64,000 nt of DNA from an uncultured Pseudomonadota bacterium (GTDB taxonomy: Bacteria; Pseudomonadota; Gammaproteobacteria; Burkholderiales; SG8-39). The position numbers and the translations under genes are program-made. Where the stretch lies: NCBI GenBank assembly GCA_903829815.1, contig CAIKRR010000014.1, positions 62,001-126,000 on the forward strand. Reading direction: 5' to 3'. The notes beneath the pieces are model-generated. The model was not told the origin of the DNA. It was given only the letters and a program-made list of their open reading frames with translations, and searched no databases. Of this stretch, positions 52,552 through 56,383 are shown one piece after another (the first letter of the stretch is position 1; the number at the start of each line of letters is the position of its first letter).

Positions 52552-52956
52552 TCACACCCCTGAGTCGCCATCGACGTACAGCCAGCGCCCCTCCAGTCGC
52601 TCGAAGCGACTCACCTCGTGCAGACGCTGAGCACGGCCGGCAAGCTTGCTGCGCGCGACAAATTCGACCGTTGCGTGCTCGGCATCGTGTTCGACATGAC
52701 GCCGCACCTCGAGCCCGAGCCAGCGCAAACCATCAGGGCGTGGCTCGATGAGCGCCGGTCGGGTCCGCGGGTGCCAGGTAGCCATCAGGTAAGCATCAAG
52801 CCCGAGCACATAAGCGGTGTAACGCGATCGCATCAAGGCTTCGGCGTTCGGCGCCAGCAGGTACTGTTCGCCGGCGTGCCATCGGCCACAGCAGTCGGCA
52901 AGTCGCCTCGACAGCCCGCAGGGGCAAGCTTGAGAACCGAGTGCCGTTCGAGACAT
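52552..52956 (-). CDS. YchJ family (UPF0225) protein
   Basis: A 134-residue protein with an N-terminal SEC-C-like metal motif CPCGLSRRLADCC (residues 11-23), then NAEALMRSRYTAYVLGLDAYLMATWHP and a C-terminal beta region ending FERLEGRWLYVDGD. The family is uncharacterised; the Cys motif probably binds zinc. Its start codon is one base from the stop of the MscS fusion gene's strand neighbour, so both minus-strand genes may be co-transcribed. Confidence 0.82.
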   Translation of the reverse strand: MSRTALGSQACPCGLSRRLADCCGRWHAGEQYLLAPNAEALMRSRYTAYVLGLDAYLMATWHPRTRPALIEPRPDGLRWLGLEVRRHVEHDAEHATVEFVARSKLAGRAQRLHEVSRFERLEGRWLYVDGDSGV

Positions 52957-55900
52957 TCAGGCTGACACACCGAGCGCCTTCATTTTCTCGGGTCGGTCAA
53001 GGCTGATTCTTCTCGTCGGCAAGGCATCTAGCCTGATAAGGACAGAACTGACCGTCTGCAATATTCGCGTCGAGAGACTGTCCACGGACCGCCCGGCACG
53101 GAAGAACACCTGCACTGCCATTTCCGTGCCTTCGCCGTCGATCTCGCGACATACCAGTTGAACCGGTCGCGCCGGATCGACGTCCGGGTCACCGGAAAGC
53201 AAATCGCGCACCGCGCGAGCAAGTGTATCCAGAACCAGCCCCACCTCCGCACCTGAACTGATCTCGAACGGAACCTCGACGCGGGTAAACCCATTGCTGA
53301 GTGAAAGATTGCTCATCACGTGCTGGACGATTGATGCATTCGGGACGAAGTGAACCTCGTCGTCACGCGAACGAATCCTGAACGTCCGCCAGCCCAGTTC
53401 CTCGACAATGCCATTCAGGGTGGCGCCACCATTCATCACCGAAATCCACTGACCCACCTTGACTGACCCTTCGACGTGAAGGGCGACACCACTGATGGCG
53501 TCCAGGATGAGTTCGCGCAACGCAAGGCCGATCACCGTGAGCAGAACGGACGAGGTCGCCAGTATCGGCAAGACATCGCGCCCCAGCACATTGGTGTAAT
53601 AGGCGGCAAACATGCACGCGTACACCGCAGACGACGTCAAGAGATGAATCGTCCCCTGAACCATCAACCCGCCGCGACTGCGACGCAACAAACCCCATAT
53701 CAGCGCGTTGATCATGAACGCGGCCGCCATGTAGTAGCCGATCGTGATCCCGTATCGGATCCAGACCACCCACCGCTGAGGTGAATTCACGAGGAGCGAA
53801 CTGCCAAAGAGCGCCACTTCGCCAAGGAGCAACGCGCCAATGAACGACAGGATGGTCAGCACGCGAGCGACGGGACTGCCCTGCCGGCGGCGACGCAGCG
53901 TGAAGCCCGTTGCAAGAAGCACCAGTGAGGCCGCCACGGCCACAAGCGCAGGCACGCGTCGGGCAAGAGCCGGCCCCAGCGACGACGTTGTCGATTCGAC
54001 CACCACTTTCATGGTCGTTTCGGAGTAGATCAACTGTCCGGCTCGGGCTCGCGGATCACCGAGCGCCCTCACGGGCCGGCTCTCGACGCCGAGTACCGAG
54101 GTTACCGCTCGAAAGCCAGTGGCGGCCGCCATGACACGTTCGCTGGCGATCTGCTCATGGATGGCGGCGCTCCCGGTCACCGATGCAAAGCTGGCCGAAT
54201 CAATCACGAGGCGCAGCCCACCCACTTCGAGTTGCTTGTGGCGCCACGACAGAGGCAATGTGATCCGCTCGAGCAGCAAGTCCTTGGGCGAAGCGTCAAA
54301 GCGGAACTTACCCTGGAATCTGAGTCGCTGATAGAAGCGCTCATCGTCCTTGAGCGACTCCACGACGATACCCTTGATGCTTCCATCGACAGCGTTCGAA
54401 AAAAACACGTCTTCAGGCTCGATGCGAATCGGTGAGCGAAACCACAATTCGAAGTCGGCGGTGTAATTGCCGTCATCGATGTCGATCGAACCGATCGAGT
54501 GAAAACGAATACCCGAGAACGCGATCGGAACGACGTCATAAAAGCGCCCCGCCACTTCCACTTCCCGGACTCTGTCGTCTGCTCTTGCGTCGACGCGCGC
54601 CGGCTGATGGCTGAATTGCCGGTCGTAGGGAACCGCTCGCCCGTCACTGTAGGTGAGTACGGAAGGCTGCGTGTCGCGCTGGCGCGTCTCGTCGAACGCA
54701 ATCAGACCGGTGAAGCCCGAGGTCGGCCGAGCCGCCACAGTGAGCGCCGCCATGTACTCGCGCAGGGATTCCCGCCACTCATCCGGATCCACCTTCTGGG
54801 TCGCCCGGTCGGACTGGCCCGTTGCAACGCCTGTGCTCCCACTGGCAGGATTCGCCTGCGAATCCTTGATTGCCACAAAGTCCGTGAGCATCGTCCCGAC
54901 GTCATAGCCATAGGCATATGCCCACGAAGGATCAGCGCCATATCGGGCGTGGTGGGCATCGACCAGCCCGCGACTCCGTTCATCCACTTCGTCCGGAGAA
55001 AAGGTCGTGATCGTCAGGACGCCCTGGGTGTAGTAACCGGGCGAGAGGCGCTCCTTGGGCAGGCCCCTGAAACGTTCACCAAAGCCGGTCAGCGCCATGT
55101 CGCCGAAGCCTACGATGCGCCCCTTGTAGCCTGAATCGCGCAACCCTTTTACGAGCGCCGCGGCGAGCTCCGAAGGCAGGTCGACAAAGGTCATGTCACT
55201 GGTGGAGAGCGACTCGGCCATCGCCTCCACCATCGCAGGCGAACTGCCGGGGTCAATCTCGCGCAGGGTCGCGCTCCTGCCGACAAAGGCGTTCCGGATT
55301 CCGTTCCAGTAGCCTGCCCCCGAGGCGGCCAGGGTCACCATGCTTACCCGGGCAGCAGGCCTGATCTGGGCGAGCATTCTGGCGGCCAACTCGGCCTGCA
55401 ACTGCTGGCTGGGCTGAAGCGTGTAGACCCATTTGCCGGCACTGGATGGGCCAGGAGGCGCCACGGGCACGAGCACGGGCACCCCGCCCTCTTCAGCCTG
55501 CTGCGCAAACGCTGCATAGCCACGGGTCTGCCCCGGGCCTACGATAGCCAGGGTGCGAAATCCGGATGCAGCCCCCTCTGCCAGCGCCAGCGTGGCTTCG
55601 GGCTTGCCTTCGTCATCGCGCCTCACGATGCGCAAGCGCTGGCTGCTGCCATGCCTGGCAAGCGCATCTGCAAACCCACGTTCGAGATCAAGTCCGACGA
55701 GCTTGTCGTTGCCGGAAAAGTCGGCAACAAAGACCACATCGAGGGGTTCTTCGAGCGTTGCTTCGCCCGCCTCGTTCGCAGGCCCCATACCCGCGATCGG
55801 GATGCCCGCTGACCACACGATCACCGAGGCCACCACTGCCAGGAAGACAGCCGCAACACTCGGGAGGATCCAACGTGGCCGCTTTGCCCGCACCACTGTG

Positions 55901-55995
55901 GCGCCGGGCACTCCACGGCGCGTGGGCAGCAGGCCTTTCAAACGGGCGGCGAGCCCGTCACCGAGCCTTGCGCATAGCTGTCGGATTCTCATCAC
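52957..55995 (-). CDS. Type I binding-protein/ligand-gated-channel-like/MscS-like channel fusion
   Basis: A 1012-residue membrane protein with an unusual order. Residues 42-64 are a signal anchor (ILPSVAAVFLAVVASVIVW). About 85-450 form a type I periplasmic binding domain (VVFVADFSGNDKLVGLDLERG, IVGPGQTRG, WAYAYGYDVGTML). About 475-610 form a beta domain whose layout recalls the extracellular domain of pentameric ligand-gated channels (IDIDDGNYTADFELWF, RLRFQGKFRF, ITLPLSWRHKQLEV). Five helices follow (about 680-840). The MscS-like part has VKVGQWISVMNGGATLNGIVEELGWR in pieces, VHFVPNASI and a C-terminal cytoplasmic domain to 1012. A ligand-gated ion channel or osmosensor is inferred. It ends one base before the YchJ-family gene. 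Confidence 0.8.
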   Translation of the reverse strand: MMRIRQLCARLGDGLAARLKGLLPTRRGVPGATVVRAKRPRWILPSVAAVFLAVVASVIVWSAGIPIAGMGPANEAGEATLEEPLDVVFVADFSGNDKLVGLDLERGFADALARHGSSQRLRIVRRDDEGKPEATLALAEGAASGFRTLAIVGPGQTRGYAAFAQQAEEGGVPVLVPVAPPGPSSAGKWVYTLQPSQQLQAELAARMLAQIRPAARVSMVTLAASGAGYWNGIRNAFVGRSATLREIDPGSSPAMVEAMAESLSTSDMTFVDLPSELAAALVKGLRDSGYKGRIVGFGDMALTGFGERFRGLPKERLSPGYYTQGVLTITTFSPDEVDERSRGLVDAHHARYGADPSWAYAYGYDVGTMLTDFVAIKDSQANPASGSTGVATGQSDRATQKVDPDEWRESLREYMAALTVAARPTSGFTGLIAFDETRQRDTQPSVLTYSDGRAVPYDRQFSHQPARVDARADDRVREVEVAGRFYDVVPIAFSGIRFHSIGSIDIDDGNYTADFELWFRSPIRIEPEDVFFSNAVDGSIKGIVVESLKDDERFYQRLRFQGKFRFDASPKDLLLERITLPLSWRHKQLEVGGLRLVIDSASFASVTGSAAIHEQIASERVMAAATGFRAVTSVLGVESRPVRALGDPRARAGQLIYSETTMKVVVESTTSSLGPALARRVPALVAVAASLVLLATGFTLRRRRQGSPVARVLTILSFIGALLLGEVALFGSSLLVNSPQRWVVWIRYGITIGYYMAAAFMINALIWGLLRRSRGGLMVQGTIHLLTSSAVYACMFAAYYTNVLGRDVLPILATSSVLLTVIGLALRELILDAISGVALHVEGSVKVGQWISVMNGGATLNGIVEELGWRTFRIRSRDDEVHFVPNASIVQHVMSNLSLSNGFTRVEVPFEISSGAEVGLVLDTLARAVRDLLSGDPDVDPARPVQLVCREIDGEGTEMAVQVFFRAGRSVDSLSTRILQTVSSVLIRLDALPTRRISLDRPEKMKALGVSA

Positions 55996-56269
55996 AGGTA
56001 CTCAATACCAACCGGGGCGGAGCCCGATCGCGACGGCGTCCCTGGGATTCATGAACCCTTCGAGCGCACCCGGTGCAAGCGCGGATGGGATGCGCTTGAA
56101 TTCAATTTGCATGCAGCTTCATTCGCGTGATTCAGCGTGGGTGCAGCGCGTTTCAGGAACGTATTCTGCCCACGCAGGATACACCCCCCCATTTTCGGAG
56201 GGTACCCCTCAAAAATGACAGGAGCATGACCACCCCCCGGTCACGACCCCCTCCATCGGACAGGTGTTC
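55996..56269. other. Gene-free region upstream of the channel fusion
   Basis: These 274 bases lie between the fusion gene start and tRNA-Thr, both on the minus strand. They should hold the fusion gene's promoter. The only structure I see is the inverted repeat at 56190-56217. The plus-strand open frame crossing the region shows no family character. Confidence 0.4.
56190..56217. promoter_or_regulatory. Imperfect inverted repeat upstream of the channel fusion
   Basis: The arms CATTTTCGGAGGG and CCCCTCAAAAATG surround a GTAC-like centre, with 11 or more pairings, about 195 bases before the fusion gene. It could be an operator, an mRNA leader structure, or a weak terminator after tRNA-Thr; it lacks a T tract on the minus strand. 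Confidence 0.35.
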
Positions 56270-56344
56270 TGGTGCCGCTTGTCCGGATTGAACGGACGAC
56301 CTACCGCTTACAAGGCGGTTGCTCTACCACTGAGCTAAAGCGGC
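56270..56344 (-). tRNA. tRNA-Thr (UGU anticodon)
   Basis: A 75-base cloverleaf with encoded CCA. The acceptor stem is GCCGCTT/AAGCGGC, the D arm is AGCTCAGTGGTAGAGC, the anticodon arm CCGCC-TTGTAAG-CGG region gives TGT, and the T arm is GTCCG-TTCAATC-CGGAC. It lies downstream of sspB with its own -10 element. Confidence 0.92.
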
Positions 56345-56383
56345 TTTGGGGAAACGGGGCATCGGTGCTTGGCTGGGCGCCCG

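Follow-up and report, generated by a model that had tools for sequence, protein, structure and literature searches.

A type I binding domain and a pLGIC-type extracellular domain ahead of an MscS-type pore: a candidate solute-tuned channel of the MscS superfamily

The pores of MscS-type channels are usually opened by membrane stretch, and those of pentameric ligand-gated ion channels (pLGICs) are ligand-gated in the known members. Additions to the 15 subfamilies of MscS proteins include ligand-binding domains (PMC4560390), among which the accessible part of that paper does not name a binding domain joined to a pLGIC extracellular domain (ECD). Many prokaryotic pLGICs are described in the available text of another paper as having N-terminal domains similar to binding proteins (PMC9221113). 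The retrieved text of Tasneem et al. (PMC549065) describes binding-domain fusions of prokaryotic pLGICs, termed ART-LGIC, and the words "MscS" and "mechanosensitive" are absent from it. One half of the architecture considered here, a pLGIC that carries a binding domain, has been published in that paper. For the other half, an MscS pore behind a pLGIC ECD, the literature searched gave no title or abstract, most subscription papers lying outside it.

Here we describe a protein that joins these parts in one chain. Its gene lies in a stretch of 64,000 nucleotides of contig CAIKRR010000014.1, the whole of which is referred to as the window. We consider it fairly probable that the protein is a channel of the MscS superfamily that shares its periplasmic front with binding-domain pLGIC receptors and has a solute-tuned pore. 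This reading is built on what the analysis documents, namely the domains, their order and homology, signs of topology, recurrence in other genomes and the occurrence of two pore types behind one kind of front end.

The open reading frames (ORFs) of the window include one of 1012 aa at exactly 52957-55995 on the minus strand; it opens with GTG followed directly by ATG, and translation may therefore begin at the second codon. Another genome of the genus (G001; the contig, CANGMI010000007.1, is also locus L021) carries a gene with 99.1% protein identity, from which the window gene differs by 26 synonymous and 9 replacement changes (dN/dS about 0.12). The differences from the 99%-identical relative are spread 7/3/25 over the three codon positions, which argues that the frame is coding. 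The ORF is real and under purifying selection. Its parts, with the evidence for each, are these:

52957-55995, minus strand: whole ORF, 1012 aa (ORF; dN/dS about 0.12)
55816-55872, minus strand: N-terminal anchor helix, residues 42-60 (hydropathy)
54631-55743, minus strand: type I periplasmic binding domain, residues about 85-455 (Peripla_BP_6; solved LIV-type proteins)
53980-54573, minus strand: pLGIC-type ECD, very likely, residues about 475-672 (profiles; weak fold support)
54259-54297, minus strand: Pro-loop position, residues about 567-579, without the [YF]PxD signature (ECD alignment)
53491-53976, minus strand: membrane part of five helices, the last the MscS pore helix, residues about 674-835 (hydropathy; low-confidence model; Arg runs; alignment to solved MscS and YnaI)
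53302-53511, minus strand: MscS beta-domain, residues 829-898 (MS_channel_2nd, E 6.6e-13)
52960-53301, minus strand: C-terminal part, probably an MscS alpha/beta domain, residues 899-1012 (YnaI alignment up to residue 949)

Hydropathy detects the anchor at residues 42-60 and membrane helices at 681-699, 712-730, 752-770 and 808-826. The helix ahead of the pore helix (about 778-804) is below the hydropathy threshold in the window protein; it is found by hydropathy in all 25 other long members of the family, and the same residues appear helical in an AF2 model of the full chain. That model, made with the one 99%-identical relative, reached a pLDDT of 31, so that the full-chain prediction proposed in the initial annotation gave no confident structure, but its helix positions were usable and it was used for these only. 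Arg runs follow TM1 (RRRR) and TM3 (RRSR) and place those helix ends inside, and the topology is consistent with a periplasmic front and a cytoplasmic MscS beta-domain. The latter is matched by MS_channel_2nd (PF00924) at residues 829-898 with 49 bits (cut-off 20.2), a match that takes in the motifs VPNASI and VKVGQW. Alignments by phmmer to solved MscS and YnaI span both the pore-lining helix and the beta-domain into which it runs, and that to YnaI extends to residue 949. The family for the C-terminal alpha/beta domain, MS_channel_3rd (PF21082), has no match in the window protein and matches 6 of the 26 long members; Pfam likewise finds no cNMP_binding domain in the window protein. Hydropathy and Pfam thus agree with the anchor, periplasmic region, five helices and MscS-type beta domain that had been read from the sequence, and the protein, judged by its pore, belongs to the MscS superfamily.

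The type I binding domain had also been recognised correctly. Peripla_BP_6 matches residues 87-373 with 51.8 bits against a cut-off of 31.7 (E 1.3e-13), and solved LIV-type proteins match the domain with E 1.8e-7. An Ala-Thr pair in the cleft, which we take to be the amino-acid-binding residues, is absent from the window domain in an alignment read by eye; counted in the same way, 9 of 11 binding domains on pLGIC pores have the pair, as against only 5 of 26 on MscS pores.

A first search for relatives found matches in 45 of 61 genomes of the genus, family and order. The full-length protein was present among these 61 only in G000 and G001, and the other genomes matched its membrane and MscS part or its binding part. 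A translated search of plasmids found the same domain order in Azospirillum; viral contigs contained no relative. Profile A2, built on the middle domains of the window protein and of three proteins from Azospirillum, had matches at E 0.01 or better in 14 of 274 genomes at the level of the class and in 43 of 398 at that of the phylum. Members with an MscS pore occur in at least 6 of the 274 and at least 19 of the 398 genomes, both counts including the window's own genome and being lower bounds because pore types were assigned only for loci L026-L073; two of the genomes counted (G367 and G504) have members cut by contig ends.

Most of the complete proteins fall into three size classes (about 930-1380, 710-790 and 330-370 aa). 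The 26 long members, which are the window protein, the three from Azospirillum and 22 others, all match both Peripla_BP_6 and MS_channel_2nd, so the profile search suggested in the initial annotation did recover the same domain order elsewhere. An assembly artefact joining two genes was considered and rejected, since this order recurs across many genomes. In 8 of the 26 a cNMP_binding domain is found C-terminal of the MscS part (for example L022:4290-7661), which gives one pore a sensor outside and another inside. Among 13 middle-sized proteins, 12 match Peripla_BP_6 and 6 match Neur_chan_memb; two of the 13 are of a different kind, L081 (2431-4752), an ECD-MscS-cNMP protein without a binding domain, and L104, whose gene is interrupted by a stop codon and of which it represents the front piece. 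Each of Pfam's pLGIC families matches one of seven short proteins, and a joint profile of the seven matched 303 PDB sequences, the best 60 of which are GLIC and GLIC chimeras (E 3.5e-32 to 2.2e-27).

Some loci show irregularities of their own. In L104:923-4552 and L083:894-1994, a single stop codon separates the sensor part from the pore part in the same frame, which could reflect decay, sequencing error or something else. At G370:C24:32960-34574 two adjoining frames, of 403 and 782 aa, have ECD matches; by their lengths they could be a short pLGIC and, next to it, a pLGIC with a binding domain, possibly a partner pair. One relative, WP_042444963.1, is annotated as "ABC transporter substrate-binding protein", a label that hides the channel.

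The identity of the middle domain carries most of the argument. Pfam has no family above cut-off between the binding domain and the MscS beta-domain, and direct PDB sequence searches with one, four or 26 sequences of the middle domain found no pLGIC; the link to pLGICs therefore needed intermediate families. In profile-profile comparison, the 26 MscS-type ECDs aligned with six canonical pLGIC ECDs over 166 columns, covering window residues about 485-667, with a probability of 99.2% and an E value of 1.9e-19, and with 11 ECDs of binding-domain pLGICs over 195 columns with an E value of 2.2e-43 (L104, L081 from the middle-sized set and L068 from the short set were left out, and the ECD of L074 was cut long both here and in the tree). 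When the binding domain and the MscS part served as controls, E values were 0.19-0.87 in local mode and 0.0096-0.48 in global mode, the worst (0.0096) being the ECD against the MscS part in global mode; reversed and shuffled profiles gave 0.027 or worse. When the 596 stop-to-stop frames of the whole window were searched, the window ORF came first with a profile of the other MscS-type ECDs, the window excluded (E 1.2e-23, next 2.6), and with two profiles built without the window sequence, one of binding-domain pLGICs (E 1.8e-14, next 7.2) and one of short canonical pLGICs (E 1.5e-5, next 5.2). With the canonical profile, none of the 26 MscS-type ECDs scored worse than E 1.1e-5.

Profile A2, in which the window ECD is one of four rows, had been used to gather all 11 binding-domain pLGICs and all seven short ones, and only four pLGICs, found only via Pfam PF02931, are independent of it. 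Against the MscS-type ECDs these four gave E 8e-4 and a probability of 24%, a weak alignment with the right register for the first strands; their HMM did not match the window ORF, and when they were added to the canonical set the window score dropped to 0.29. Between these four and the canonical set, however, the alignment reaches E 5.5e-15, and between them and the binding-domain pLGICs E 2.7e-11, so that the chain holds at each link. A single-sequence AF2 model of the window ECD alone had a pLDDT of 41. With this low-confidence model, all 50 rows listed by Foldseek were pLGICs (TM-scores 0.20-0.29, one match at E 0.001 or better), as were 48 of the 50 listed by VIA, the other two being MAdCAM entries, with Z values of 5.4-6.5 in a range that the tool calls common. 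We take these searches as weakly supporting; they agree to that extent with the fold search that the initial annotation had proposed, and no match to a common unrelated fold emerged.

A likeness arising by chance, or as that of one generic beta-sandwich to another, would fit the lack of a Pfam match, of a direct PDB sequence match and of [YF]PxD, the weak score against the independent four-pLGIC set, and the common-range VIA scores with two unrelated entries among the 50 rows listed. We regard it as very improbable, however, given collinear profile alignments at 1.9e-19 and 2.2e-43 when controls gave 0.0096 or worse, a canonical pLGIC profile that finds 26 of 26 MscS-type ECDs, and fold-search listings in which all 50 Foldseek rows and 48 of the 50 VIA rows are pLGICs. 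Homology of the middle domain to pLGIC ECDs is established at the level of the family by these profile comparisons, and for the divergent window member it is very likely. The resemblance first noted by inspection therefore stands, through window-free profiles, controlled profile-profile alignment and a weak fold search, but the domain ends at about residue 672, just before TM1, and not at 610.

The same front end is found on two kinds of pore. Pore profiles were applied to 48 loci (L026-L073), 47 of them distinct because L041 and L044 are one ORF, with the result that 26 matched the MscS pore profile, 16 the pLGIC pore profile, none both and five neither. Two of the five (L053 and L060) are cut by contig ends, two (L038 and L039) are weak matches and the last, L033, is a short pLGIC interrupted by a stop codon, its pore being encoded in the piece that follows. 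The window ORF (L026) matched the MscS pore profile, which was built including it, and not the pLGIC pore profile. The binding domain-ECD module sits on both MscS and true pLGIC pores. In a tree of 50 ECDs, those with a binding domain formed one supported group of 40 rows irrespective of pore (99/99), to which the other short pLGICs do not belong. L081, which has no binding domain, falls in this group as well, and so does the short ORF L068, which is near-identical to its neighbours. The MscS label changes twice on this tree, against a mean of 16.8 when shuffled, and together with the 40-row group this points to few pore exchanges behind a common sensor. The window ECD itself has a branch length of 2.49, so its own placement is unsure.

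The Pro-loop signature [YF]PxD is the best marker of pLGICs, and conserved Pro-loop residues lie at the boundary of the extracellular and membrane domains, according to the available part of PMC4795631. We found the signature in 21 of 22 ECDs on pLGIC pores (which include a cluster of seven near-copies, with the split gene L104 counted apart) and in none of 27 on MscS pores, the window ECD among those without. A looser pattern, P.[DE], was present in all 22 of the former and in one (L077) of the latter. The window protein would thus carry a pLGIC ECD by homology but, judged by its pore and Pro-loop, is not a pLGIC. That the signature is missing precisely in combination with the other pore suggests a loop released from its partner or rebuilt for it. 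This is a correlation, and lost coupling could explain it as well: since pLGIC ECDs act through this loop, its absence from 27 of 27 MscS-pore ECDs could mark a valve of the ordinary MscS kind, gated by tension and by no ligand, in which the periplasmic domains have no role beyond assembly, anchoring or protection. The intact MscS core and the missing amino-acid-type Ala-Thr pair of the window protein would also suit such a valve. It is less easily squared with the complete two-lobed binding domain kept in 26 of 26 long members, or with a full ECD that includes the last strands before TM1, as anchoring would not obviously need either, and L081 lost the binding domain and kept the ECD. We therefore judge a plain valve to be rather unlikely, though an alternative of some weight.

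The window gene has unremarkable neighbours. Upstream of it lie a GST-like gene, presumably sspA, an SspB gene and tRNA-Thr. A ychJ-like gene begins directly after the stop codon, and past it there is a separate, convergent binding-protein gene. From about 52890 to 56345, the gene with its upstream sequence as far as tRNA-Thr is 94-100% identical in DNA to the corresponding locus of G001 (L125), whereas the flanks are 70-92% identical in 250-base bins and the stretch at 40-50 kb is 78-82% identical; the block looks like a recent exchange between species, or may be an artefact of binning or assembly. In a congener (L124, G002:C19:110500-117500), inspection by eye placed after tRNA-Thr an ORF resembling a dehydrogenase as well as a binding-protein gene accompanied by transporter-like ORFs, and the window gene is absent. 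Gene content behind tRNA-Thr varies within the genus. A mobile element at tRNA-Thr was rejected as the end of the tRNA is not repeated on the far side and G002, with other genes there, offers no clean empty site.

Nine of 15 wide loci (L126, L127, L128, L129, L134, L135, L023, L024 and L025) have a type I ABC exporter and an HlyD-type protein at the same locus. Such company could mean that the protein is the helper of a neighbouring transport system, for example the type I exporter in alphaproteobacteria, sensing its substrate or relieving pressure, and not an independent receptor. However, the other six wide loci, the window included, are without these neighbours, and three of the nine exporter loci are congeners, which makes a helper role improbable.

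We return to the solute-tuned channel, whose assembly, ligand binding, conduction and gating in the window protein we infer along the following lines. The chain would be anchored in the inner membrane, and binding of a small solute would close the two-lobed binding domain. The pLGIC-type ECDs would form a ring above the membrane that turns or tilts in response. This change would pass to the first of the five membrane helices, which is predicted to follow directly after the last ECD strand, as in pLGICs, and from there to the MscS pore helix, with the outcome that the pore opens or that its tension threshold is shifted downwards. Among the solved MscS-type matches, each of the 22 rows belongs to an entry of seven chains, and in the solved pLGIC matches listed the chains total five or multiples of five; a simple graft would thus bring a mismatch of symmetry that the assembly must resolve. 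We put forward more tentatively, as a possibility rather than an expectation, a natural class of receptor-channels in which a binding domain and a ring of the Cys-loop-receptor type open an MscS pore, the ring being forced from five- to seven-fold symmetry (or the MscS pore to five-fold) and the coupling loop being rebuilt.

If this is true, three signals, a solute outside, a nucleotide inside and membrane tension, would act together on members that have a C-terminal cNMP domain. More generally, our results suggest that a pore usually opened by stretch could be opened or tuned by a chemical in solution. One periplasmic sensor on two unrelated pores, whose symmetry differs in known members, would offer a direct test of how an ECD is coupled to a pore, how subunit number is controlled and whether MscS pores respond to dissolved chemicals.

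The closest described systems each share a part of this architecture. MscS and YnaI have the same pore helix and beta-domain; in the window protein, unlike these, a large periplasmic binding domain and a pLGIC-type ECD precede the membrane part. The bCNG channels, which figure in titles cited by PMC4560390, likewise combine an MscS pore with an added ligand domain, but theirs is a C-terminal cyclic-nucleotide domain, whereas the window protein is without a cNMP domain and its added sensor is periplasmic. DeCLIC, going by the available text of PMC9897478, resembles the window protein in that a prokaryotic ECD is preceded by an additional N-terminal module; this addition consists of beta-rich domains and not of a type I binding domain, and the pore is that of a pLGIC. 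The ART-LGIC fusions of PMC549065 share the front end, a single chain in which a homologous ECD comes after the binding domain. Theirs leads into the four-helix pore of a pLGIC, and that of the window protein, without [YF]PxD, leads into the pore of MscS.
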